Shown here: piece by piece, positions 1-12,211 of the stretch
Numbering within the stretch: the first letter of the stretch is position 1
How the letters are laid out: every line of letters starts with the position of its first letter
Translations under genes and position numbers: made by a program
Source: Agathobacter sp.
GTDB taxonomy: Bacteria; Bacillota_A; Clostridia; Lachnospirales; Lachnospiraceae
Direction of reading: 5' to 3'
Length of the DNA stretch: 12,211 bases
NCBI GenBank assembly: GCA_017936725.1
Contig: JAGBEZ010000008.1
Coordinates: 1 to 12,211 of the forward strand
Notes under the pieces: model-generated
Seen by the model: only the letters and a program-made list of their open reading frames with translations
Told to the model about the DNA's origin: nothing
Databases searched by the model: none

Positions 1-510
1 CATGTGGCAGCCTGGTTCGATTGCTTCCATATGAACCACGTTTCCTTCACCTGTTGCTGGAAGGATGATATTCTTAGAGTTTGTAACCTGTGTAAGCGCT
101 TCATCTGCCCAGAAACCTTCGCAGTCTGGACAGAACCAGTATTCGATACAGCCATTGTAGTGGCAGCCTGGTTCTACTGCTTCGTAATGTACTAGTTTGT
201 CGCTTCCTGTCGCTGGAAGTACTACATTTTTGATATTTGTAAGCTGTGTAAGCGCTTCATCCTGCCATACCTGTTCACAGTCGTAGCATACCCAGTGTTC
301 CATCTGTCCATCCATGTGGCAGCCCGCTTCGATTGCTTCCATGTGAACTACATTTCCTTCGCCTGTTGCTGGAAGGATTACACTCTTAGAATTTGTAACC
401 TGTGTAAGTGATTCATCTGTCCAGAAACCTTCACAACCTGGGCAGTACCAGTATTCTACATTACCATTGTAATGGCAGCCTGGTTCTACTGCTTCCATAT
501 GAACTACATT
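1..510 (-). repeat. 156-bp (52-residue) tandem coding repeat, three full units and a partial fourth
   Basis: Unit boundaries are at 510-355, 354-199, 198-43 and 42-1 (cut by the edge). The GCH codons fall at 480, 324, 168 and 12, exactly 156 bases apart with no indels. Each full unit reads roughly VVHMEA[VI]E.GCH, EYW or EHW, C..C, [TAQ]DE.LTQ.TN and LPATG. Units alternate in type: the first and third have GCHYNG with EYW[YF]CP.C, and the second has GCHMDG with EHWVC..C. The fourth begins like the second. One Cys-x-x-Cys plus a GCH per unit could bind metal or form a disulfide; this is inference. Similar repeats are known from surface proteins of gut Clostridia. Confidence 0.9.
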
Positions 511-2127
511 TTCATGTGTGTGTGGTTCTTCTGGTTCAACTGGTGTTTCTTCATCTGTCACTTTAAAATAAATCGAAGTTGAAGGAGCAGTAGCATTAAT
601 CTCTGCAAGTTCTTCCCACTCAACGTTCATGGTTACAACATCATCTAATACTAATGATTTTAACCAAGCAAGGTTTTCTGTCTGGGTTGTAGTTGTGTCA
701 TGACCCATAAGAATGATTTTTCCCTCGCCAAGGCCTTCTGTGATTGCACCATTGTTTGCGGCTACGTCAGTAGATTTTACAACATATGAACCATCATCAT
801 TCTGTTCTAAAATAACGGTATACCAGTACGCATAAGTTGATGCTGGCTGTCCTGTGATGGTTGAAATACTATCTTCTGCATCTTTAGATGCGAATGCATA
901 AATATGTTCAACTCCTGCAGACCAGTCATAGCCATTTGCAAAAGTAACATATCCTTTTTCGTCATCTTCTGCATTTACATCTACGCTTGATTTATAAACT
1001 TCTGGATCGATATAAAACTGTGTATCCTTTAATGCACCCGTCTTTAATGTGTTTGCATAACCGCCATTAAAGAAGCTTTCATACTCGAAAAATGCTACAC
1101 CCACACCATTGTTCAGTACGGTATTTGCCTGTCTAGATAAAGAATCTACAGTGAAACCATTCTGTGCTGAAAGACCAATAACAACATTCTTTTCGCTGCC
1201 ACCAGCTACTTTTATAGTATTACTAGTTATGCTATTTATCTGGTTTTCATAATATGCCATTGGCACAACTAAGTCGCCATATCCTTTGCTCATCCAAAGT
1301 TCTGCTGACTGCATAAATAAATTCTTTCCATCCTGATAAAATGGATATACAGATAAAGAAAGAATTAAATCAGGGTTGATTGCTTTTAATTCGATTGAAC
1401 AAGCTTTTACAAATTCAGTTACCTGCTGCTGTTTAAAGAGAACAAATTTGCTTGGTTCATCATAAGGACTACAACCATATTCAGCCTCAAATGCACTGAT
1501 TGTATAATCATCAAATCCATAGTCGATGGAATTTGTTTTCTGTGGATAACGAACATAGTCTAACTGAAGTCCGTCAATATCATAGTTTTCTACAAGAATT
1601 TCGTATAAGCTAACAATCCATTCACGACATTCTGGTCTAGCTGGATTTAAGAAATACATTGGTCCATACATTGTATCTTCGTAGTTATTTCCATTTGTAT
1701 CTGTAAGGAGCCAGTCTTTTTTCGCTGCATATACTGGACCACCGCTGTTCTCCCATGCCATTCCGATAAAGAAAGACTCTACCCAACAATGTAACTGGAT
1801 GCCTCTTTCATGACATTCATCAATATATGCCTGAAGTACGTCAAATCCATTATACATTGGATTCTGATAGGTATAATCATACTCTACTGGGAAAATTGTA
1901 TATCCATTGAATACAGTTTCCAAGAAAATAGTATTAATACCTGCATCTGCAATCTTTTCAACAGCTGCTTCTACCTGCGCTGCTGTTTTTTCCTTTGGTC
2001 TAAGCCATAATGCTCGCATTGGATTTTCTGCTTCTTCTGCACTTGCTGGAACGGCACCCTGTAACATGGTAACTACCATTCCTAAAACAAGGACAAGTGA
2101 AAGAAGTGCTTTTCTTATTTTTTTCAT
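1..2127 (-). CDS. Secreted GHL10 (DUF187-type) glycoside hydrolase with C-terminal Cys/His repeats, partial (3' end outside window)
   Basis: The frame is open from ATG at 2127 to the left edge: 709 codons with no stop, so the C-terminus is missing. GGAAGGA lies upstream of the ATG. Residues 1-30 are a Sec signal peptide with probable cleavage after ASA. Residues 35-370 are a GHL10 domain, with NPMRALWLRP at the start, HCWVES near 113 and DGLQLDYVRYP at 185-195. The family includes E. coli DigH, which acts on denuded peptidoglycan glycan; the substrate here is unknown. Residues 395-510 are the module shared with three other proteins of the window (Y400 D W, G426 Q, L466 G E G). From residue 540 a 52-residue repeat with GCH and CxxC begins. 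The catalytic part is a paralogue of the 445-residue gene just upstream, but it sits behind a terminator and so probably has its own promoter. The surface anchor, if any, must lie in the missing part. Confidence 0.9.
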   Translation of the reverse strand, partial: MKKIRKALLSLVLVLGMVVTMLQGAVPASAEEAENPMRALWLRPKEKTAAQVEAAVEKIADAGINTIFLETVFNGYTIFPVEYDYTYQNPMYNGFDVLQAYIDECHERGIQLHCWVESFFIGMAWENSGGPVYAAKKDWLLTDTNGNNYEDTMYGPMYFLNPARPECREWIVSLYEILVENYDIDGLQLDYVRYPQKTNSIDYGFDDYTISAFEAEYGCSPYDEPSKFVLFKQQQVTEFVKACSIELKAINPDLILSLSVYPFYQDGKNLFMQSAELWMSKGYGDLVVPMAYYENQINSITSNTIKVAGGSEKNVVIGLSAQNGFTVDSLSRQANTVLNNGVGVAFFEYESFFNGGYANTLKTGALKDTQFYIDPEVYKSSVDVNAEDDEKGYVTFANGYDWSAGVEHIYAFASKDAEDSISTITGQPASTYAYWYTVILEQNDDGSYVVKSTDVAANNGAITEGLGEGKIILMGHDTTTTQTENLAWLKSLVLDDVVTMNVEWEELAEINATAPSTSIYFKVTDEETPVEPEEPHTHENVVHMEAVEPGCHYNGNVEYWYCPGCEGFWTDESLTQVTNSKSVILPATGEGNVVHMEAIEAGCHMDGQMEHWVCYDCEQVWQDEALTQLTNIKNVVLPATGSDKLVHYEAVEPGCHYNGCIEYWFCPDCEGFWADEALTQVTNSKNIILPATGEGNVVHMEAIEPGCHM

Positions 2128-2211
2128 GTTTTTATTTCCTTCCATACATTTCAATTTATAAATGTACATTTTTGCTAAAATTTTTCACTTCACAAAGAAT
2201 TTCTAAGAAGT
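2128..2211 (-). promoter_or_regulatory. AT-rich leader of the distal GHL10 gene with two small palindromes
   Basis: This stretch lies between the upstream terminator and the start at 2127, so a promoter is expected here. I see no -35/-10 pair with good spacing; TATAAA (2160-2155, minus strand) is the best -10-like box and lacks a convincing -35. It overlaps a perfect 12-bp palindrome, AAATGTACATTT, at 2160-2171. TTTTTGCTAAAA at 2169-2180 resembles TTTTTAGCAAAAA at 5259-5271 upstream of the first gene of the cluster. The ribosome site GGAAGGA precedes the ATG. Confidence 0.35.
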
Positions 2212-2249
2212 AAAAAACGCATCCCGCAGAGCTACTTCTACGAGATGCG
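2212..2249 (-). terminator. Intrinsic terminator after the 445-residue GHL10 gene
   Basis: Read on the minus strand, CGCATCTCGTAGA pairs with TCTGCGGGATGCG in about 13 base pairs, including two G-U wobbles. The loop is short and a run of six T follows (2217-2212). It begins 16 nt after the TAA of the 445-residue gene and separates it from the second GHL10 gene. Confidence 0.88.
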
Positions 2250-2264
2250 CCTTATTATACGTCA

Positions 2265-3602
2265 TTATTCTGAATCACGTTTTTTCTTTTTTGAGCTGAC
2301 AATTAAATAGATAACCTCTCCAATAATTGCAAGAACTGCAACTGCTAATACAACGTAAAGAATGATTTCTCCTACGTTAACAGGTTCATCTACATCTATA
2401 ACATCATCTCGTTCTACATCAGTTTTGTATGTATCTACATCAATATTAAACTGTGTATCTTTTAAAGCAGTATTCTCTAAACTGCCAGCATATCCTTTGC
2501 TGTAGAATGTTTCATATTCAAAGAACGACACGCCTGCACCTGCTTCAAGAATCGTATTAACCTGATTCTGAACAGACTCTAACGTAAAGTCATTGATTGT
2601 AGAAACACCCATTACAGTATTTGCAGGACTATCACAAGCAACAGCTATAGAACTATTGGTTAAAGAACTCATGCCCTCAGAATACGACATTGCAACGAGC
2701 AAATCGCCATATCCCTCGTCCATCCACAATTCTGCAGATTGCATAAAGTTACTAACGCCCTTGCTATAATATGGAGATACAGATAATGAAAGAATCAAAT
2801 CTGGGTTGATTTCTCTTAATCTCGTAGAACACATTTTAACATATTCTGTTACCTGTAGACGTTTATAATATTCAAACACACCTGCTTCGAAACTGTTTGA
2901 TTTTACTTCGCGAGGATCAAATACTTCTTCGCCTTGTTCCTCACGCCACTCCATAAAAGCTTCTGCCGTGTAGTCATCGTAACCATAGTCCTTACTTGCG
3001 GTTTTTTCCGGATAACGACAATAGTCGAGCTGAATACCATCTGCATCATAGTTCTCTATGATAATCTCATACAGACCTACAACCCACTCTCTACACTCTG
3101 GTCTAGCTGGATTTAAGAAGTACATTTTACCATACATAGTTTCTTCCCATGGATTTCCTTCTCTATCTGTCAACAGCCAGTCTGTACCTTTAAGGGCCTT
3201 GTATACAGGACCGCCGCCGCGATTTGTCTGCAACCCTATAAAGAAAGATTCTACCCAGCAATGCAGTTGCATCCCACGGCTATGGCAAGCATCAATATAT
3301 GCCTGAAGCACATCAAATTCTTGATGAATAGGATGTTGAGAAATATAATCGTATTCTACAGGAAAAATGGTAAATCCTTCGTAAACGGTTTCTAGAAAAA
3401 TAGTATTAATCCCTGTATCCGCCAACTTCTGAACATTTTGTTCTACCTGTTCCTTAGTCCATTCCTTTGGGCGAAGCCATACTGCACGCATTGGATTTGA
3501 CTCCTCTTCGCTAGCATAAGCTATAGTAGCTTCGCACAATGGTGCAAGCACCATACCCAAAATTAATATAACGGAAAGAAGTTTTTTTACAAATCGATTC
3601 AT
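2265..3602 (-). CDS. Membrane-anchored GHL10 (DUF187-type) glycoside hydrolase
   Basis: A 445-residue protein. The signal peptide is residues 1-30 (AYA before SEE). The GHL10 domain spans about 35-390 with NPMRAVWLRP at 36-45, HCWVES at 114-119, NPARPECREW at 164-173 and DGIQLDYCRYP at 188-198. A membrane segment at about 411-435 is followed by SSKKKKRDSE, so the enzyme is predicted to sit outside the cell on a C-terminal anchor. Family members are thought to cleave glycan backbones, and E. coli DigH acts on denuded peptidoglycan; that substrate is not shown here. An AGGAAGG lies upstream of the ATG. It is the third gene of the minus-strand operon, 33 nt after the 252-residue gene, and is closed by the terminator at 2212-2249. 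Unlike its paralogue at 1-2127 it lacks the shared module and the Cys repeats. Compared with that paralogue it has a longer acidic loop near 215-240. Confidence 0.92.
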   Translation of the reverse strand: MNRFVKKLLSVILILGMVLAPLCEATIAYASEEESNPMRAVWLRPKEWTKEQVEQNVQKLADTGINTIFLETVYEGFTIFPVEYDYISQHPIHQEFDVLQAYIDACHSRGMQLHCWVESFFIGLQTNRGGGPVYKALKGTDWLLTDREGNPWEETMYGKMYFLNPARPECREWVVGLYEIIIENYDADGIQLDYCRYPEKTASKDYGYDDYTAEAFMEWREEQGEEVFDPREVKSNSFEAGVFEYYKRLQVTEYVKMCSTRLREINPDLILSLSVSPYYSKGVSNFMQSAELWMDEGYGDLLVAMSYSEGMSSLTNSSIAVACDSPANTVMGVSTINDFTLESVQNQVNTILEAGAGVSFFEYETFYSKGYAGSLENTALKDTQFNIDVDTYKTDVERDDVIDVDEPVNVGEIILYVVLAVAVLAIIGEVIYLIVSSKKKKRDSE

Positions 3603-3635
3603 ATCTTCTTTTCCCTTCCTAATACCGTATTATTA

Positions 3636-4394
3636 TTAAGCGTTTTTCTTTTTGCTTACTACAACGATTACGCCAACGATAGCGATTACAACAACAACTA
3701 CTACAGCGATTACGAGTGGGTTAATTCCACCTTCTGCATCTTTGTCAGCATCTTTGTCAGCATCTTTATCAGCATCAGCGTTTGCATCATCTTTGTTTGC
3801 GTCATCTTTGTCTGCATCATCAGTTGCTTCTGTTTCTGGTTCTGGTTCATCAACTTCTACAGGAACTGTTGAAAGGAATGCACCGTCAACATAATCATAT
3901 ACATCGTACATAGCACTTGGATGAACGCCAAGGTAGAATTCTTTTCCTACTACGAGGTTAGTGTTGTAGAAATCATAATCAGCCTGTTTAGCGCCAGCAA
4001 GGTTAGCATGGTACATGATTACCATTTTACCTTCGCCAAGTGTTGTGTTATGGAATGGGTTTGCAACACCGTCTGGTGTTGTGTAAGCTTCTTTAACAAC
4101 CCAAGCGCCTTTTGCTTCATCTAATTCTAATAAAGCGCTACAGAACCAACCAAATACAGCTGGATCCTGCTGACCTGTTAAAGTTCCCATTGTCTGTGTT
4201 TCATCTAATGAGATGAATGCAATAACGTCCTGGTAAGAACCGAAGTTCCAGTCGTACATGTTTGCACATGTGATAACACCCTGTGTGGTGCCTTCTGCTT
4301 CTGCAGCTTTATAGCTTGCAGCATTACCAGCGATTGGTAATACTACAGCTGCTAAGATTAATAAAGAAAGAACAATTTTTGTAAGTTTCTTCAT
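3636..4394 (-). CDS. Surface protein made of one shared YDW/LGxG module, Asp-Lys-Ala linker and C-terminal membrane anchor
   Basis: A 252-residue protein of unknown function. Residues 1-26 are a signal peptide almost identical in its first half to that of the upstream 227-residue protein (MKKLTK start), so the two are probably tandem paralogues. Residues 43-165 are the shared module: Y47 D W, G74 Q, W83, L119 G E G K M and VGKEF at 149-153. Residues 178-222 form an acidic linker (EPEPETE, then DDADK, DDANK and DADK repeats). Residues 224-246 are a Val/Ile-rich membrane segment followed by SKKKNA. No catalytic motif is visible, so a binding or scaffold role outside the membrane is the simplest reading. 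GGGAAG precedes the ATG. It is the second gene of the operon, 44 nt after the 227-residue gene and 33 nt before the GHL10 gene. Confidence 0.87.
   Translation of the reverse strand: MKKLTKIVLSLLILAAVVLPIAGNAASYKAAEAEGTTQGVITCANMYDWNFGSYQDVIAFISLDETQTMGTLTGQQDPAVFGWFCSALLELDEAKGAWVVKEAYTTPDGVANPFHNTTLGEGKMVIMYHANLAGAKQADYDFYNTNLVVGKEFYLGVHPSAMYDVYDYVDGAFLSTVPVEVDEPEPETEATDDADKDDANKDDANADADKDADKDADKDAEGGINPLVIAVVVVVVIAIVGVIVVVSKKKNA
3735..3824 (-). repeat. Asp-Lys-Ala low-complexity coding repeat (12-15 bp units)
   Basis: Codons for residues 191-220 of the 252-residue protein. They include three near-perfect copies of a 12-bp unit coding DADK (about 3736-3776) and two of a 15-bp unit coding DDANK. 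The segment forms a charged stalk between the module and the membrane. The near-identical DNA units could change number by slippage without breaking the frame. Confidence 0.8.
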
Positions 4395-4438
4395 AATTAT
4401 CTTCCCGCTTTCTTTTTTAATTGTTTTTTGTGATTTAA

Positions 4439-5122
4439 TTATGCGTTGCGTTTTTTAAGTCCAAGAGCTACGAAAGCAACTGCTACGAAGAGCATAGAAG
4501 CCATAGCTACTACTGGTGTAGCATCACCTGTTGAAGGTACGTTTGAACCAGCATTGTTTGAACCAGCGTTGTTTGAACCAGCGTTGTTTGAACCAGCGTC
4601 TGGTGTTGTTGTAGTTGTTCCTGAATTGCCAGCTGAAGCTGCTGCTTTTTCAATTGAAACAGATACAGTTGAACCCCATTGCAAACCTACCAACTCATCA
4701 AAAGAATTGCTTAATTTTACTTTGTCGCCAACTTTTAAGCTTGATAAGAAAGCAAAGTCATCTGCTTTTGCTGTAGTACTGTGAGCCATAAGAGCCATTT
4801 TGCCCTGACCGAGTTTTGAATCATAAATTTTGTTTGCTGAACCCACTTCTGAAGCTGTAACAGTACATACGCCGTCAGCACCTTCTTCTAAAAGAACAAT
4901 ATGCCACCATTCGAATGTATTGCCGGTCTGTCCGTTAATTGAGTTAACTGACTGTGTATCATCTGCAGCGAAAATATAAATATGATCTACGCTTGCGCCA
5001 TTCCAGTCATAACCATTTACCATATCTGCAGTAGCTTTCTCAGCTGCCTGATAGTTTGTTGCACTAGCTAATACTGTTAATACTAAAGCTAATGAGAGGA
5101 TGAGTTTTGTTAATTTTTTCAT
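4439..5122 (-). CDS. Surface protein made of one shared YDW/LGxG module with a sortase-type C-terminal signal
   Basis: A 227-residue protein of unknown function. The signal peptide is residues 1-26 (YQA before AEK). Residues 34-145 are the shared module: Y38 D W, G64 Q, W72-W73, L104 G Q G K M, H114 and VGDKVKL. After a Thr-rich stretch there is an AGSNN repeat (176-194), then VPSTGD at 195-200, a hydrophobic segment at 201-221 and LKKRNA. This is the layout of a cell-wall sorting signal, with Val in place of the usual Leu of LPxTG. No sortase gene is in the window, so anchoring by transpeptidation is inferred. AAGGA precedes the ATG. It is the first gene of the operon, about 75 nt downstream of the predicted start of transcription, so it is likely to be the most abundantly made. 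No catalytic residues are evident; glycan binding is a guess. Confidence 0.87.
   Translation of the reverse strand: MKKLTKLILSLALVLTVLASATNYQAAEKATADMVNGYDWNGASVDHIYIFAADDTQSVNSINGQTGNTFEWWHIVLLEEGADGVCTVTASEVGSANKIYDSKLGQGKMALMAHSTTAKADDFAFLSSLKVGDKVKLSNSFDELVGLQWGSTVSVSIEKAAASAGNSGTTTTTPDAGSNNAGSNNAGSNNAGSNVPSTGDATPVVAMASMLFVAVAFVALGLKKRNA
4541..4600 (-). repeat. Four 15-bp tandem repeats coding AGSNN
   Basis: Plus-strand units GTTTGAACCAGC[AG]T[TC] run back to back at 4541, 4556, 4571 and 4586, differing at one or two positions. They code the flexible AGSNN linker just before the VPSTGD sorting motif. The near-identity of the units suggests recent expansion or a capacity for length variation. 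Confidence 0.9.
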
Positions 5123-5204
5123 TTTGTTTTCCTTCTTTCTTTTTTATTTTTTTGCGCTAATTTTTTTCCAAGCACCGCGCATATGCCATTTTTGGATAAT
5201 TGTA

Positions 5205-5233
5205 ATTATAATCGCAATCTCTCAAAAGTTCAA
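5205..5233 (-). promoter_or_regulatory. Sigma-A type promoter of the surface-protein/GHL10 operon
   Basis: On the minus strand, TTGAAC (5233-5228) is separated by exactly 17 bases from a perfect TATAAT (5210-5205). Transcription would start near 5198, giving a leader of about 75 nt to the ATG at 5122. The spacer contains GAGATTGCG (5221-5213), one arm of the inverted repeat described separately. Confidence 0.82.
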
Positions 5234-5326
5234 CAAAAATATATAAACTTGCAACCTTTTTTTAGCAAAAATACCTATATTTGAATGTACTTTCATCGAG
5301 ATTGCGCGTTCTTTGAATGTATTTTC
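5213..5326. promoter_or_regulatory. Candidate operator cluster upstream of and inside the operon promoter
   Basis: CGCAATCTC at 5213-5221 lies in the -10/-35 spacer. Its exact complement GAGATTGCG lies at 5298-5306, with centres 85 bp apart (about eight helical turns). Flanking the upstream arm are two direct copies of TTTGAATGTA[CT]TTTC at 5280-5294 and 5312-5326, 32 bp apart. TTTTTAGCAAAAA (5259-5271) is a short near-palindrome. These look like binding sites for one or more regulators, but no protein can be assigned from sequence alone. No gene or clear terminator for the upstream acetyltransferase gene was seen in 5123-5332. Confidence 0.4.
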
Positions 5327-5332
5327 TTTGTT

Positions 5333-6250
5333 TTATAGGTTTTTGTACGCGCCACAATAGGTTCGCTCTGGTAAAAAGCCAAATTTCCCATAAAATTTGG
5401 TCAGTATTGTCCAGTCAATATTCACACGATCCCTGCCGAGTGCTTTTAACTGCATCAGACATTTATATAGAAAATACTCTCCCACACCTTTGCCTCTTGC
5501 CTTTTCGGCAATTCCTATCGGGCCGAGCTTCCCTCTGCCGTCCGGTTCTTTTGACAGCATGCAAAATCCCAGCACCTCTGTCCGTACTTTGTCCCAAAGC
5601 AGCATGATTTCCTGATTCGACTTGCCTTCTTTTAGCGCACACTCTACCTCGAACTTCCATCTTCCTGGAAATTCCTGTTCTAAAAACGCAAGCAGCGCTA
5701 CTTCCTCGCCTCGATAAGCGCATGCCATCCATTGCGTATCAAATGGTTCTGACAAAAACGCCTCCATTTGTGGATTCTTTTGTACATTTCCCTCTAAGTC
5801 ATAGTAGACAAAGTCATCCGTAACCACAAACTGGTTTTTTCGAAAGAATCCGCACAGTTTTTCTGTCACTTCTGGCAGTCCAGAAAAGAAACAAAAGAAA
5901 TCCTGTCCTACAATCCATTTTTGGATTCCCATTTCTTTTAAAGTACTTTGCGCTTTTTCTAATAGAAGAGAGCCATATCCATTTCGCTGCGCTTCTTCTT
6001 TTACCGCCAGGATGCTAAGCCAAGCCGTAGCAGGAAGTAAATCTTCACAGTCTGGAATTTTTACTCCGATAAATCCCAGGCACTCTCCATTTTCCCATAA
6101 TGAATAACTGGCCTCCTCGCAAAAACAACGGTGCGAAAAAAGTTTTTGCTCTAATGCTTCCTTTGTAACGTAATAATGCAAAGGAATTGTCTCTTGACAC
6201 AGGCTTGCCAAGTATTCGATATCGCTATGTACCAACTTTCGCCATTTCAT
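5333..6250 (-). CDS. Double-domain GNAT family N-acetyltransferase
   Basis: A 305-residue cytoplasmic protein with two GNAT folds in tandem, about twice the usual length. The N-terminal copy (about 1-150) has an acetyl-CoA motif of the form AVKEEAQRNGYGSLLLEKA near 82-100. The C-terminal copy (about 175-305) has GIAEKARGKGVGEYFLYKCL followed by a FYGKFGF motif near the end, typical of the GNAT C-terminal strand. Such tandem forms often have one active and one degenerate copy; both Q/RxxGxG/A loops look intact here. The acceptor is unknown. The ATG at 6250 is separated by one nucleotide from the TAA of the upstream RpiR gene, so the two are almost certainly cotranscribed and translationally coupled. 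This suggests acetylation of an amino sugar or another ligand tied to the regulator, but that is inference. Confidence 0.9.
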   Translation of the reverse strand: MKWRKLVHSDIEYLASLCQETIPLHYYVTKEALEQKLFSHRCFCEEASYSLWENGECLGFIGVKIPDCEDLLPATAWLSILAVKEEAQRNGYGSLLLEKAQSTLKEMGIQKWIVGQDFFCFFSGLPEVTEKLCGFFRKNQFVVTDDFVYYDLEGNVQKNPQMEAFLSEPFDTQWMACAYRGEEVALLAFLEQEFPGRWKFEVECALKEGKSNQEIMLLWDKVRTEVLGFCMLSKEPDGRGKLGPIGIAEKARGKGVGEYFLYKCLMQLKALGRDRVNIDWTILTKFYGKFGFLPERTYCGAYKNL

Positions 6251-6251
6251 T

Positions 6252-7085
6252 TTATTTCTCCCGTAACGCAGAAAGCGTATTCTTGTATTTTTGTATTTTT
6301 GCAGAGGCCTCTCTCTCCATATAGTATGCGTATAAAATATCGAACATGATTAATATCGAAAGCTGTGGAGATACCTTCATTCCGAAATCCAGATTTTTTA
6401 CATATGCCACGCGTAGTATATCGTCGCAATAATATTCCACCCCTGGCTCCACGTGTGAAGTTATGAGTACCACTTTCGCCTTACTTTTCTTCGCCATTTG
6501 AAGGCAGTCCAGCACCTCTTTTGTTTTTCCACTTAAGGAAATCCCGATTACAAGGCACTCGCTGTCCACCAAAGCTGCGCGCATCATCATGATGTGCGGG
6601 TCTGTAACCACATCTACGTCAACTCCAGCTCGCATAAGGCGAAGCTGCATTTCTCTTGCGGCAAGCCCCGAGCATCCAAGACCGCAAATGAAGACCCTGC
6701 GACAGGCATCCAAGAGTCTTGCGACTCTTTGAATCTGCTCCTCGTCAATCAATTCATAATCATCATGAATAATCGATTTGTAGTAGCCGTAATTCTTTTT
6801 GGTCACATAAGATATATCCTTGTCCACTGGGATATCACTCTTTTCATATTCCAAATCCTTTTCATATAAAAAGATTAGCTCACGATACCCTTTGTAGCCA
6901 CATTTTTTTGCAAATCTCGACAAAGATGCTTCCGAAACATATAGTTGCTTGGCGATATTTTTGGAAGAAAGATCGCATTTTTCCGTATTATTCAAGAAAA
7001 ACTCCGCGATATTTTTCTCCACCGCTGTCATCTCATCATAGCAGTTTCGAATGTTTTTTTTCGTCTCATTTTTAAAGCTTACCAT
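6252..7085 (-). CDS. RpiR/MurR family transcriptional regulator (HTH + SIS domains)
   Basis: The protein has 277 residues from ATG at 7085. An N-terminal RpiR-type helix-turn-helix covers about 20-75 (SSKNIAKQLYVSEASLSRFAK, one residue long of a standard core, is its heart). A C-terminal SIS sugar-phosphate-binding domain covers about 115-260 with FICGLGCSGLAA at 132-143 and GISLSGKT at 181-188. The family binds phosphosugars such as MurNAc-6-P (MurR) or ribose/hexose phosphates and controls their catabolic genes. I chose 7085 because AGAGG (7098-7094) sits 8 nt upstream; an in-frame GTG at 7094 overlaps that site and would leave almost no leader after the -10 at 7110-7105. The gene is divergent from the phosphodiester glycosidase gene and cotranscribed with the GNAT gene. 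It is the natural candidate to regulate the surface-enzyme genes around it. Confidence 0.92.
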   Translation of the reverse strand: MVSFKNETKKNIRNCYDEMTAVEKNIAEFFLNNTEKCDLSSKNIAKQLYVSEASLSRFAKKCGYKGYRELIFLYEKDLEYEKSDIPVDKDISYVTKKNYGYYKSIIHDDYELIDEEQIQRVARLLDACRRVFICGLGCSGLAAREMQLRLMRAGVDVDVVTDPHIMMMRAALVDSECLVIGISLSGKTKEVLDCLQMAKKSKAKVVLITSHVEPGVEYYCDDILRVAYVKNLDFGMKVSPQLSILIMFDILYAYYMEREASAKIQKYKNTLSALREK

Positions 7086-7104
7086 ATTCATCACCTCTGC
7101 CCAT

Positions 7105-7131
7105 ATTATACCATAAAATGCCCCTTAACAA
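7105..7131 (-). promoter_or_regulatory. Promoter of the RpiR-GNAT operon (extended -10)
   Basis: On the minus strand, TATAAT at 7110-7105 is preceded by TGG, giving an extended -10. A possible -35 is TTGTTA (7131-7126, 15-base spacer) or TTTTGT (7133-7128, 17-base spacer). The predicted start of transcription near 7098 leaves a very short leader before the ATG at 7085. Confidence 0.65.
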
Positions 7132-7144
7132 AACTACTTTTTCC

Positions 7145-7171
7145 TTGAAACTGGTAAGATATCGGTATAAT
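7145..7171 (+). promoter_or_regulatory. Promoter of the phosphodiester glycosidase gene
   Basis: TTGAAA (7145-7150) is followed after 15 bases by a perfect TATAAT (7166-7171). With the usual 17-base spacer the -10 would be TAATAT (7168-7173). The ribosome site AGGAGG at 7203-7208 is ideal, 9 nt before the ATG at 7218. Confidence 0.65.
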
Positions 7172-7217
7172 ATATAGGTAACAATATTAGGAAAAACCCA
7201 AAAGGAGGGAGAACATT

Positions 7218-9308
7218 ATGAAAAGAACAAAACGTCTCTTTTTCATCACATGTCTTTTGGTTTTCATGCTGAGCTTGACCGCTTGCTCGCAGGGAAATCA
7301 GGACGGCAAAGGCAAGAATGAACTTCCAAAAAATGTAGTTCACGAAAGCCTATCTGTTACTAGTACCGTAAATGGAAACACCGTTTCCGCACAGTCACTT
7401 ACCTTTAACCCAGCCGACGGATATATTCCAGTTGTTTTTGAAGCGAATGCTGGATGGGCTTCTTTATTAGAAGATCATTATAAAACCGCTACTGGAGAAC
7501 GCTACGGATATGATGTAGTAGGTATCATCAACGGCTCATTCTTTAGTATGGATACCGGCACGCTGAACGGAAACACAATTACCGACGGACGTATTACTTG
7601 TGCCCATGATGGTTTCACAGGTGAAATGGTTACCTTCGGTGCCGACGGTGCTATGCGCATTGTTAATAGTGCTTTGGAGTACAAGGTTTCCATCAACGGA
7701 CAAAATTATGACAGTGCACTTTATTATATCAACAAGGTTAGCCCAGCTGGCTCTGTAAACGACAAACTCTATTACTGGGATTCTGCTTGTGGCGCCAAAT
7801 CGGACGCAACAGAAGCTGGCTACGAGCTCCTTTTTAATAAGAAAGACAATACCGAATTATCTGTAGGAAAAACTTTAGTAGGCGAACTTGTTTCCGTAAC
7901 AGAAACCACCGAAGAAACCAAAGGAATCGAAATCGGAAGCAATCAGTTTGTTTTATACTGCAAAACAGCTTCTCCTTTCGCTCAGAATTTAAAGACCTTA
8001 ACACCTGGTTCACAGGTACGTATTGATGTAAATGAAACCATTGAAGAATCAAGAGAAGTCATGGAAAACTGTTCTTCTGCAATCACTAACGTAGGCTGGC
8101 TAGTGAAAGATGGTGTAGATCAGACAGAAATCAACAAAACAATCGGAACACACTCTGTAGACCTCGAAGCTCGCTGGACTGCATTTGGTACCAAAGAAGA
8201 TGGCTCTTACGTATTCTTTACCACAGAAGGTGCTGCTACTGGCGAAGGCGGCTCAGTTACCCTTCGTGACGTTGCCAAAACTATGATGGATATGGGCTGT
8301 ACCAATGTTATCCGTATGGATGGCGGCGGTTCTTCCGCAATGTATCTTTGTGATGCAGGCGAAGGAAAACCAGGATTTGTCCAGGTATCGGAACGTGCCG
8401 TTTCTGACTGTATTATGGTAGTAAAACGTGATTCTATGGCTCCATCTAAGGAACTTAAGAGCGATTTAGAAGCTGCTATCTCTACTGCAAAGAACCTCTA
8501 CGACCAGACAAAGAGCGAAGAAATCAAAGCGGCTTATGACTATGCTTCTGCTATCGCAGAATCAGCTACCGCAACGGAAGGTGAATACAAAAAGGCTTGT
8601 ATGAAAATTGCAAATGCCATCTACTACATCGAAGACCTCAAAGCACTTGTCTCTGCTGCAGAAATGGAAGACAGCTCCATCTATAGCGACTATGCTTATA
8701 TTGAGCTTACAACCGCCATTGCTAATGCAAAAACAAAGCTTGACAACAATGCATCAAAAGAAGAATTGGTGACTTGCTACAATGATTTGTTACACTGGTA
8801 TACACTTACCGGAGCGATCGATGTCAATGTCGCAACTGGAAAGCCTTATACCACAAATATTCCTTTCAACGCTAACTATGCAGATACTGATAACAAAGAA
8901 CTGACCGACGGACTCCTCGGTGATGCTTCCAATACATACTCTCCAACATGGATTGGATTCAATGAATTCTCAGCTGACGCTAGCGAAAGCTTAGACGTTA
9001 TCGTAGATTTAGGCGAAACAATGAGCGGCTTACGCAACTTCACCGTAAACGCACACCATCAGCCAAGCTGGGGAATCGTACTTCCAGCTAAAGTAACTGT
9101 TTATGTTTCTGACGATGGTAAATCATGGAAAGAAGTTGCAGCAACAACTGTTGCTACTGAATCTATCGAATCTATTAATCCCGCAGCGGTCAACATTGTT
9201 GCAACCGCGGCAGAAGATGTATCTGCACGTTATGTAAAATATTCTATTACTCCATATGGAGAATTTATATTTATCAGTGAAGTAACTGCTGAAGTGCATT
9301 ATGAATAA
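7218..9308 (+). CDS. Lipoprotein phosphodiester glycosidase (NAGPA/DUF2233 family) with helical linker and F5/8 type C domain
   Basis: A 696-residue protein. Residues 1-23 are a lipoprotein signal peptide with lipobox LTAC (Cys23), placing it on the outer face of the membrane. Residues about 60-403 form the phosphodiester glycosidase domain, with GIINGSFFS at 102-110, RWTAFGTKEDGSYVFFTTEG at 319-338 and RMDGGGSSAM at 366-375. The human relative removes GlcNAc from a GlcNAc-phosphomannose diester (the uncovering enzyme); bacterial substrates are mostly unknown. Residues about 410-530 are predominantly helical, with two FIVAR-like repeats. Residues about 536-695 are an F5/8 type C (CBM32-like) domain with DVIVDLGE and VYVSDDGKSWKEV, probably for glycan binding. 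It is a single-gene unit divergent from the RpiR-GNAT operon and ends before a bidirectional terminator. It lacks the shared YDW/LGxG module. Its role in removing a sugar from a phosphodiester is family knowledge; the substrate is open. Confidence 0.92.
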   Translation: MKRTKRLFFITCLLVFMLSLTACSQGNQDGKGKNELPKNVVHESLSVTSTVNGNTVSAQSLTFNPADGYIPVVFEANAGWASLLEDHYKTATGERYGYDVVGIINGSFFSMDTGTLNGNTITDGRITCAHDGFTGEMVTFGADGAMRIVNSALEYKVSINGQNYDSALYYINKVSPAGSVNDKLYYWDSACGAKSDATEAGYELLFNKKDNTELSVGKTLVGELVSVTETTEETKGIEIGSNQFVLYCKTASPFAQNLKTLTPGSQVRIDVNETIEESREVMENCSSAITNVGWLVKDGVDQTEINKTIGTHSVDLEARWTAFGTKEDGSYVFFTTEGAATGEGGSVTLRDVAKTMMDMGCTNVIRMDGGGSSAMYLCDAGEGKPGFVQVSERAVSDCIMVVKRDSMAPSKELKSDLEAAISTAKNLYDQTKSEEIKAAYDYASAIAESATATEGEYKKACMKIANAIYYIEDLKALVSAAEMEDSSIYSDYAYIELTTAIANAKTKLDNNASKEELVTCYNDLLHWYTLTGAIDVNVATGKPYTTNIPFNANYADTDNKELTDGLLGDASNTYSPTWIGFNEFSADASESLDVIVDLGETMSGLRNFTVNAHHQPSWGIVLPAKVTVYVSDDGKSWKEVAATTVATESIESINPAAVNIVATAAEDVSARYVKYSITPYGEFIFISEVTAEVHYE

Positions 9309-9325
9309 GAAATATTTAACCTTCT

Positions 9326-9370
9326 AAAAAAACACCGACATGGAAGAAATCTTCCATGTCGGTGTTTTTT
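9326..9370. terminator. Bidirectional intrinsic terminator between convergent genes
   Basis: CACCGACATGGAAG and CTTCCATGTCGGTG form a perfect 14-bp stem around an AAAT loop. A run of A lies on the left and a run of six T on the right, so either strand ends in a U tract. It lies 17 nt after the stop at 9308 and 26 nt before the stop of the opposing gene at 9397, and should serve both. Confidence 0.95.
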
Positions 9371-9396
9371 ATAATGATTCTTTTATATGACAAATA

Positions 9397-12147
9397 TTAT
9401 TCTGTATATATCGATATCGTACCTTCTTCTAAATCATAAGTAACACGGATATTACTCTTGAAGATAGAGCGTGTGTTCACATTTGCAACTCCGTAATCCT
9501 CAACTGTTCCCTGAGAAAGCATATCTATAAGGTCGTAATTCGCTGTACCATGACTTGTGATAGCAAATCCTCCTTCTGGAACTACAATCTCAAACAGATT
9601 ATATCCAATACCACCAGAAGCCCAGTCGTTCGCAAAACCGTCTAGCAAGGAGATTGCAGGGTTTTTGGTATAATCCGTATAGTAAGGATTTACATAATAG
9701 GTGGTGCCCATTGGTCCGCCATAACCGCTTAGAGGCCAAAGTACTGCGTATGCGATTCTTCCTTCGCTATCAACCACAATGTAATAACGCCATCCATTTC
9801 CAATCCAACTGCCAGTACCTGTTGAAGTATCTGTAATGGATTTCAGTTCTGTACCTGCTGTAGTCCAAAGTGCAATGCTATCTGCTCCTGCATCGCTGTT
9901 TGTCGTGCTAAATGTCACGCTAGTAGGCGCATCCGGATCTGCCTCAACTTCTTCTGCTTCTATGGTTAGAGTTTTTGCATCCGGATCATAGGTAAATGTA
10001 CAGGTGCCTGCACTGGTTCCATTGTAGTAAAGCATCTTACCATTCGTGCTGTAGAAGCCGCCTGCACCATTAAAACTTGTGGCTGTACTGAAATCTCCGA
10101 TTATCTGGGTATTTTCTGTAGTAAGTCTTTCGCCGTTATACGAAAACGTAATATTGTTTCCAGAATTAAAGGTATGGGTCGCGGTATAAGTTCCACTGGT
10201 TGCATTATAGGTCGCATCCGCATCAAAGGCTCCGCTATATGCTAGTCCAACATTACTTCCATCTTCTTTACAAGAAATGGTTGTAAACTCAAAGTTTTCT
10301 TCAAAACAATACATGTAGCTTTCACGAAGCAAATCATTGTTTTCAAATAAAGTAGAAAAACCGGATTGTGGACCGAAACCTAATACGATTCCATCCATTT
10401 CTACTTGGAAATTTGTCAGATGTTCATGTCCGCAGAAGAATGCAACTGAACTTTCTTTTTCCTTCATGGTTGTAAAGAAGCCTGTATTCTCGTAAGTAGG
10501 TCCGCCACTTCGAATGGATTCAATGCTGGCATTTGACAATTCCTGTTTGATTATAAAGTTTGCACCATTGCCTGCGAGTGCTGCTTTGTATGCCGTATAA
10601 TATTCTGGAAGCTGAATGTGAGAAAATACTACTGAAGGCATGGTTCCGTCACCAGAATAAAGGGCATTCAATTCATCAATCTCACTTTCGTACCAAGCAA
10701 TCTGACCTTTTGTAATCGAATCATAAGAACTAATGCTGCTGTTATAAGCGCCACCATCCATAAGGATAATTGCACCTAAAAGTTCTGTACCATTATGATT
10801 TAGTACTAAAATAGAGAAATTTCCGTAGCGGTTGTTGTCCGTATCTACATATCCTCTATCAAAAAGCAGATATCTTGCATCGCAATTCTCCATATATTCG
10901 GAAAGAGATTCTTTACTATAACCATCCGCTGTGCTTTCTGCATCATGATTTCCATAAATAAAAGTCCAAGGTGTCTTGAGACTTTCCATAATCTCTATAA
11001 ACTCCTGCAGCCCTTCTGTGCCTGTTGTCATGATATTGTCACCAGAACACACGATTAAATTTGGTTTTTGAGTATCTACAACATATTGCATATACTCTTT
11101 TGTTCTTTCTTCTCTGTTATTATGGTAGTTCTTTCCTTCTGTACCAAAATGCAAATCTGCAAACTGCACAACCTTAAGTGGTTCATCGGAAGACTTGTAC
11201 ACTGCTAAGCCGTTTGGAATGTCTGCTTCTGTAATTCTTCCTTCATTTACAGGTGCATCATATGTATAGGAAAGTGTTACATCTGTAATCTCTCTTGACG
11301 CAGACTGAAGTGTAGCAATGTCAACATTGAGTTTAAATTCTTCACCTACTTTTGCATAATTCTTAAAGAAGTTGTAAGCTTTTGTCTGACTCACCTTCGC
11401 TTGATTGCTAAAAACAACAACCATTCTTCCATCTCCTAAGGTCGCAGACTCCGCTTCATTGGTACCATCTGCTGCACAAACCTCGGTAACTTCCCAGGTA
11501 TCGTTTGCAGAGTTATAGTCGAAAACAACTCCGTTCCACCACCCCAAGAAAGACGAAGACTGTCCATGAAGGGAATATGGTGTTGCCGTAGCATCTGATG
11601 ATGCGAATACATAAATCTGTCCCGTCGTATTGGTCCAGTCATACTTATTTGCATAAGTAAGGTCTGCTGTTACTGTTAATGGAGCTGTCTCTACTTCCGC
11701 CTGTCCGATGATGTCAGTTCTTGAAGCGGTAGAAACTTCTCCATCTACGGTTACATATTTTACCGTAATCGTCACTTCTTTTCCCGCATATGCGCTAGTA
11801 AGATAACCATTAATCGTATAGGTTACAAAGTATCCTTCTACGCCATAGATCTGTTGTGTTGTATATGGCACCCCATCTGCATATAGTCCATCATATGCCG
11901 TTGTACATACGAGTTCCTTTGTCGTATTCCCGTCGATTGTTAACGTGAATGATATGCTTTCGTAATTTTCTAAGGCATCCACATACGCAACTAAACGCAC
12001 ATCTTTCTCTTCTTTTGTTTGATATTTAATTAACTGTGCAACCTCTGTCGGCACTGCCGCTGTTGCAATCGCTGGCGTCATGGCAATTATGACACATAAA
12101 GTCAATAATATCGTAAGTATTCTGTTTTTTGTTTTTCTCTTTTTCAT
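9397..12147 (-). CDS. Secreted multidomain calcineurin-type metallophosphoesterase carrying the shared YDW/LGxG module
   Basis: A 916-residue protein. The signal peptide is residues 1-30 (ATA before AVP). Residues about 32-150 are a beta-rich N-terminal domain that I do not recognise. Residues 164-280 are the shared module (Y169 D W, G195 Q, W203-W204, L237 G D G R M, VGEEFKL). Residues about 322-600 form the metallophosphoesterase with all classic metal ligands: D331-x-H333, G369-D-N, G399-N-H-D, H510 and G573-H-E-H576. The long region from about 625 to the end seems to contain two further beta-rich domains with a boundary near 745-755 (acidic EAEEVEADPDAP). No membrane segment or sorting motif closes the protein, so it may be released or bound through its accessory domains. 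AGGGGG precedes the ATG by about 8 nt. It converges on the phosphodiester glycosidase gene. Hydrolysis of an exposed phosphomonoester or phosphodiester on a glycan is inferred, not shown. Confidence 0.92.
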   Translation of the reverse strand: MKKRKTKNRILTILLTLCVIIAMTPAIATAAVPTEVAQLIKYQTKEEKDVRLVAYVDALENYESISFTLTIDGNTTKELVCTTAYDGLYADGVPYTTQQIYGVEGYFVTYTINGYLTSAYAGKEVTITVKYVTVDGEVSTASRTDIIGQAEVETAPLTVTADLTYANKYDWTNTTGQIYVFASSDATATPYSLHGQSSSFLGWWNGVVFDYNSANDTWEVTEVCAADGTNEAESATLGDGRMVVVFSNQAKVSQTKAYNFFKNYAKVGEEFKLNVDIATLQSASREITDVTLSYTYDAPVNEGRITEADIPNGLAVYKSSDEPLKVVQFADLHFGTEGKNYHNNREERTKEYMQYVVDTQKPNLIVCSGDNIMTTGTEGLQEFIEIMESLKTPWTFIYGNHDAESTADGYSKESLSEYMENCDARYLLFDRGYVDTDNNRYGNFSILVLNHNGTELLGAIILMDGGAYNSSISSYDSITKGQIAWYESEIDELNALYSGDGTMPSVVFSHIQLPEYYTAYKAALAGNGANFIIKQELSNASIESIRSGGPTYENTGFFTTMKEKESSVAFFCGHEHLTNFQVEMDGIVLGFGPQSGFSTLFENNDLLRESYMYCFEENFEFTTISCKEDGSNVGLAYSGAFDADATYNATSGTYTATHTFNSGNNITFSYNGERLTTENTQIIGDFSTATSFNGAGGFYSTNGKMLYYNGTSAGTCTFTYDPDAKTLTIEAEEVEADPDAPTSVTFSTTNSDAGADSIALWTTAGTELKSITDTSTGTGSWIGNGWRYYIVVDSEGRIAYAVLWPLSGYGGPMGTTYYVNPYYTDYTKNPAISLLDGFANDWASGGIGYNLFEIVVPEGGFAITSHGTANYDLIDMLSQGTVEDYGVANVNTRSIFKSNIRVTYDLEEGTISIYTE

Positions 12148-12148
12148 A

Positions 12149-12211
12149 ATAGCCCCCTACTTCTATTACGGTTTCCACTAAAGACATAGCCCCCTCGTAA
12201 AAACGAGGGGG
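12149..12211 (-). promoter_or_regulatory. Leader of the metallophosphoesterase gene: duplicated ribosome-site sequence and edge hairpin
   Basis: Read on the minus strand, AGGGGGCTAT occurs twice: at 12158-12149, where it is the ribosome site of the gene, and at 12195-12186. The upstream copy is the 3' arm of a perfect 8-bp hairpin CCCCCTCG/CGAGGGGG (12211-12190, loop of six). The free CCCCCT arm could instead pair with the real ribosome site. No good promoter is visible before the window ends, so the transcript start is unknown. Confidence 0.45.

Follow-up and report, generated by a model that had tools for sequence, protein, structure and literature searches.

In Cwp19, a solved relative of an enzyme considered here, a GHL10 domain reported to have peptidoglycan lytic transglycosylase activity is joined to three CWB2 domains, a separate C-terminal extension thought to hold the enzyme on the cell wall (PMC6016235). 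The Cwp19 structure paper reports that glycoside hydrolase activity was confirmed and leaves the precise substrates open (PMC5765458). NAGPA domains, in turn, have been surveyed in large Bacillota proteins beside TelC-type and changing ligand-binding domains, as parts of possible conflict systems, some of these proteins having a peptidase predicted to target peptidoglycan (PMC12419801). Here we analyse a 12,211-nucleotide stretch of Agathobacter sp. (GCA_017936725.1, contig JAGBEZ010000008.1, positions 1 to 12,211; hereafter the window, meaning this whole stretch), which encodes two GHL10 enzymes (GHL10a and GHL10b), a NAGPA phosphodiester glycosidase, a calcineurin-like phosphoesterase and two display proteins, four of these proteins carrying one and the same extracellular module. 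As in Cwp19, the GHL10 domain of GHL10a is followed by a C-terminal extension, but this consists of the unnamed module and Cys-rich repeats and not of CWB2, a Pfam family without a match in the window proteins. Collectively, our data define a real, unnamed and rare surface module, the function of which we infer from its partners; this so far unannotated module is now bounded and given a likely fold relative, namely the unexplained insert of NAGPA catalytic domains.

A homologous module recurs in four window proteins

GHL10a, the 252-residue and 227-residue display proteins and the phosphoesterase protein, all encoded on the minus strand, carry one homologous module of ~135 residues. Profile matches, shuffling tests and BLASTP comparisons with outside proteins placed the four copies at amino acids 404-535 of GHL10a (positions 565..960 of the window), 37-176 of the 252-residue protein (3867..4286), 28-159 of the 227-residue protein (4646..5041) and 159-294 of the phosphoesterase (11266..11673), the profile edges giving lengths of 132 to 140 residues. 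The original prediction, made from the letters of the window, had located shared segments of about 110-125 residues in these same four open frames; the locations hold, whereas the edges had been drawn somewhat too narrowly. Most pairs of window copies are only 25 to 37% identical. Smith-Waterman alignment of all six pairs yielded z values from 13.8 up to 32.7, with the real score never matched in 1000 shuffles per pair, so the likeness of the segments is not a product of chance. BLASTP further connected GHL10a with a 371-residue protein of another locus (L001; E 5.7e-20), and a 716-residue protein of a third (L012) with the phosphoesterase (E 8.5e-26), the 252-residue protein (E 1.6e-17) and the 227-residue protein (E 7.3e-12).

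The motif arrangement proposed for the module was largely recovered. Counted on the translations of GHL10a, the 252-residue protein, the 227-residue protein and the phosphoesterase, in that order, YDW precedes GQ by 26, 27, 26 and 26 residues, and GQ precedes LG by 40, 45, 40 and 42. LG[EQD]G[KR] is present in all four copies and VG.[EK][FV].L in three, GHL10a having LDDVVTM instead; the methionine that closes the predicted motif likewise occurs in three copies and is replaced by isoleucine in GHL10a. Across 29 copies (P0001 and P0011, which duplicate window copies nearly or exactly, were left out), the conserved residues, numbered as in the 227-residue protein, include V88 (29 copies), N36 and G105 (28), L104 and W72 (27), Q65, H114 and G132 (26), and W40 and G64 (25). 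One copy of L012, the phosphoesterase copy and P0012, a relative of the latter, lack H114.

The two display proteins consist, as predicted, of little more than the module and an anchor. Both have a signal peptide-like start. In the 227-residue protein (4439..5122, minus strand) the module is followed by an LPXTG-like tail (4442-4540) made up of VPSTGD, a hydrophobic stretch and KKRNA, which stayed under the NCBIfam cut-offs (24.3 versus 47 and 13.0 versus 15.9 bits). In the 252-residue protein (3636..4394, minus strand), an acidic linker leads to a hydrophobic stretch and KKKNA, and LPXTG is lacking.

When 19 copies were compared with Pfam and NCBIfam, none scored above a curated cut-off and no named domain matched all four window segments in either library, which supports the original prediction in that the module has no Pfam or NCBIfam name. 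A sequence search of the PDB returned no convincing E-value for the module, nor was the module matched above cut-off or at a convincing E-value when PHROGs was queried with the phosphoesterase and both display proteins. We found no paper on such a module or on the NAGPA insert among literature titles and abstracts, which does not by itself prove that none exists.

The predicted fold resembles an insert of NAGPA catalytic domains

Fold prediction covered one of the four window copies, that of the 227-residue protein, and yielded a model of high confidence (pLDDT, the predicted local distance difference test, 92.8) with seven strands and four short helices. The strands could form the beta-sandwich of the original prediction or, as another candidate arrangement, a barrel. 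The other three copies should share this fold, as follows from their homology to the modelled one. Neither outcome that would have counted against the original prediction, a confident match of all four segments to a named, characterised domain or predicted folds at odds with each other, arose with one copy modelled. The two best fold matches of the model were stretches within 5h3k (Slr0280) and 6ozd, both NAGPA-family chains by sequence, located just ahead of the catalytic C-terminal half; Foldseek, applied to PDB structures and to viral models, returned nothing at E <= 0.001. The window's own NAGPA contains an insert in its catalytic domain at amino acids 157-288 (7686..8081, plus strand), as delimited by its model, fold matches and profile comparison, and this insert, modelled separately, also retrieved 5h3k and 6ozd first and second, through the same stretches. 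The strand order of module and insert agrees until the last strand. Direct comparison of their profiles with hhalign was weak (P 0.0034, probability 9.5%), albeit with none of 60 permuted decoys scoring as well.

The module stands alone as regards Pfam and NCBIfam names but not as regards structure, where two solved NAGPA-family proteins supply, with their inserts, its best matches. On these models, a fold link between module and NAGPA insert appears fairly well supported, and the two may share descent, with weak support from sequence. There are also clear differences. The inserts of 5h3k, 6ozd and the window NAGPA lie inside a catalytic domain, whereas the module stands free, occurs in tandem repeats and is joined to other enzymes; it has W/GQ and LGxG[KR] motifs and an extra last strand, and shows no significant sequence match to the insert. 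Because its four window copies reside in proteins without a PF09992 match, and hence outside any NAGPA catalytic domain, we describe the module as alike in fold to the inserted domain and do not file it as one.

The likeness could instead reflect a common arrangement of strands reached without shared descent, the module being an unrelated beta-rich domain. The middling Z, the weak Foldseek score of the module and the low hhalign probability would all agree with this. Yet the same two chains, through the same stretches, top both lists and stand well above the third entry (3.5) in that of the module, the strand order is shared up to the last strand, and the decoys score lower, all of which renders independent origin the less likely reading. 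This alternative concerns origin only and fits any function of the module.

The module is rare and belongs to a conserved gene row

Of nine proteins retrieved with the 227-residue protein, P0001 is all but the window's own, and the other eight (P0002-P0009) are display proteins in which the module is combined with VPSTGD or VPATGD. The phosphoesterase module retrieved eight large proteins (P0010-P0017): two phosphoesterases like that of the window (P0011, P0012), a protein with three module copies (P0010), one with CHAP and two copies (P0013), and four with a single copy and GH25 (P0014-P0017). CHAP is also labelled in P0015-P0017 and appears in the given name of P0014, from an Agathobacter sp. 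metagenome-assembled genome; Pfam was re-run on P0010, P0013, P0014 and P0017. The expectation that the module occurs both on anchored display proteins and in fusion with enzymes is therefore borne out in the window and in other loci. Relatives that have names are labelled Lachnospiraceae, Agathobacter or else Clostridia or Eubacteriales.

At this search sensitivity the family is rare and patchy. Of two scans of a genome collection, one gave 149 pattern matches and no relative, the other 68 matches and a single locus, L001. The module was present in 1 of 62 genomes of the L001 genus and 1 of 391 in a sample of its class (L001's own genome in both cases), in 2 of 397 genomes sampled from its family, and, within the genus of the second family match, in 1 of 4 (again its own genome). 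The module profile, run against 179 open reading frame pieces from a set of loci, matched only in loci already known to carry the module. A divergent cousin was observed in the CHAP proteins, at amino acids 386-507 of P0014 and likewise in P0013 and P0015-P0017. It matched a module profile built without it weakly, at 6.1 to 13.5 bits (13.5 in P0014), with hhalign probabilities of 67% against the module and 23% against the insert; a genome search with the cousin (0 of 299) lacked a positive control and is hence uninformative.

The order of regulator, module display protein and GHL10 enzyme is kept in three loci, the window, L001 and L012, and constitutes the core of the locus. L001 follows the window's order, with NAGPA, RpiR, GNAT, a 371-residue display protein with two module copies, a 244-residue display protein and two GHL10 enzymes, the second of which ends at the contig end; a cell wall hydrolase (Hydrolase_2) with SH3 domains adjoins its NAGPA. 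L012 comprises RpiR, the 716-residue display protein with four module copies, and one GHL10 enzyme devoid of the module. Identity between window and L001 reaches 76% for RpiR, 73% for GNAT, 68% for NAGPA and GHL10b, and 72% for GHL10a over the available part, but only 32 to 44% for the display proteins. Comparison of the display regions (3636-5122 in the window, 6299-8182 in L001 and 1535-3685 in L012) revealed one to four module copies. By these sequence comparisons, the display part changes fastest, both in sequence and in copy number, and this surface part of the locus may evolve rapidly, a behaviour that would also fit the conflict systems mentioned above.

Candidate function of the module

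Besides GHL10 and the phosphoesterase in the window, fusion partners of the module comprise CHAP, in P0013, and GH25, in P0014-P0017 and for the most part alongside CHAP. Both CHAP and GH25 are families of peptidoglycan hydrolases. Because the partners thus include wall-cutting enzymes, we infer that the module would bind a wall glycan and bring the enzymes to it, the idea of a shared ligand being that of the original prediction. MurR/RpiR regulators, the type encoded in the gene row, often sense sugar phosphates. The conserved order of RpiR, display and GHL10 genes and the cell wall hydrolase adjoining the L001 NAGPA speak for the same reading. The best solved relative of GHL10a is Cwp19 (E 4.8e-10); amylase-type enzymes come next, from E 1.2e-06 on. 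Another GHL10 protein is DigH of Escherichia coli. It is described as a hydrolase acting on peptide-free glycans (PMC12288456).

We propose that the module would represent, in free-standing form, the small beta-rich domain inserted in some NAGPA catalytic domains, and that it would serve not in catalysis but in binding a glycan of the bacterial wall, be it the glycan strands of peptidoglycan or a phosphoglycan. Secreted GHL10, CHAP, GH25 and phosphoesterase enzymes would each be kept on their polymer by one or two copies, and display proteins with a sortase or membrane anchor would use their one to four copies to retain that polymer, or pieces of it, at the surface of the cell. To this proposal as a whole we give about an even chance. 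Should the ligand prove to be denuded strands of glycan or a phosphoglycan of the wall, the module would found a new wall-binding family and provide a handle on the role of loci with GHL10 and NAGPA enzymes. A wider scenario, which we consider possible but would not yet favour, is that a domain from inside phosphodiester glycosidases turned into a mobile, tandem-repeatable glycan-binding module, giving rise to a new family for wall glycans that changes fast on display proteins and is common to the enzymes of one RpiR-governed locus; the NAGPA insert would then be a built-in substrate-binding domain. Since both lie in one locus, module and insert each offer a way to test what the other does.

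Alternatively, the module might bind a glycan from the host or the diet (mucin, plant or starch-like material); in such a foraging locus, RpiR would respond to a sugar phosphate, the enzymes would degrade the glycan and the display proteins would tether the cell to it. Two observations weigh against a ligand confined to the wall and would suit foraging: the GHL10 enzyme DogH reportedly liberates maltose when acting on starch (PMC9967864), and many listed relatives of the window NAGPA (P0045-P0137) carry dockerin (PF00404) and F5/8 type C domains, which is why this NAGPA type seems to be used in cellulosome-like settings as well. The window NAGPA itself has an F5/8-like C-terminal stretch, below threshold (PF00754, 24.8 versus 28.2 bits). 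On the other hand, the fusions to CHAP and GH25, the position of Cwp19 as best solved relative of GHL10a, and the lack of a sugar transporter within the window, beyond the ends of which no search was made, render foraging unlikely.

If the module were a protein-protein docking unit, with display and enzyme copies binding each other or a common protein and so building a surface complex, tandem arrays of up to four copies on anchored proteins, in the same gene row as a module-bearing GHL10, would fit as well. However, the L012 locus combines a four-copy display protein with a GHL10 neighbour devoid of the module, and this, together with the low identity among window modules, leaves no sign of a fixed self-interface; we regard docking as quite improbable. 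Finally, it is scarcely credible that the module is a degenerate sortase-like domain, or a catalytic domain of another kind, centred on the frequent H114: Pfam Sortase (PF04203) matched 4 of 19 copies, locally around this histidine and below threshold (18.2 versus 26.6 bits at best), and a sortase-type protein was the best PDB sequence match (E 0.09), but the catalytic residues of sortases include conserved Cys and Arg, neither of which forms a column conserved in 60% of the 29 copies, H114 itself is missing from phosphoesterase copies and one L012 copy, and no sortase was among the best 50 fold matches of the module listed by Foldseek and the second fold search.

Other genes and features of the window

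The window holds eight large genes, assigned to families by Pfam. Six form a row on the minus strand, in the order MurR/RpiR-type regulator (6252..7094; HTH_6 and SIS, PF01418 and PF01380), GNAT acetyltransferase (5333..6250; PF00583, 68.1 bits), 227-residue and 252-residue display proteins, GHL10b and GHL10a. NAGPA (7218..9308, plus strand; PF09992, 80.3 bits) diverges from this row, and beyond it lies the 916-residue phosphoesterase protein (9397..12147, minus strand), with its Metallophos domain at amino acids 324-522 (10582-11178; PF00149, 50.1 bits). GHL10b (2265..3602, minus strand; 445 residues) lacks the module, has a hydrophobic C-terminal tail and matches PF02638 at 96.6 bits against a cut-off of 27.9. 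GHL10a (1..2169, minus strand) extends past the window edge, with 723 residues shown, and its GHL10 domain occupies amino acids 51-313 (1231-2019; PF02638, 111.1 versus 27.9 bits).

Ahead of its module, the phosphoesterase contains an unnamed stretch (11692..12051, minus strand) that, together with the module, is common to the CHAP/GH25 protein P0017, the two proteins being 61% identical over 271 residues (amino acids 33-293). The last 185 residues of the phosphoesterase (9397-9954, minus strand) include a VPEGGFAITSHG run that slightly resembles the histidine region of the module; this region showed no profile link to module or insert, at an hhalign probability of 0.5% with each. Amino acids 556-723 of GHL10a (1-504, minus strand) comprise three full and one partial Cys-rich repeats of ~50 residues each, with the pattern ..EPGCHYNG..YWYCPGCEGFW..LPATG.. 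and no Pfam family above cut-off there, and a C..C stretch resembling this repeat is found in a NAGPA protein of a further locus, L024.
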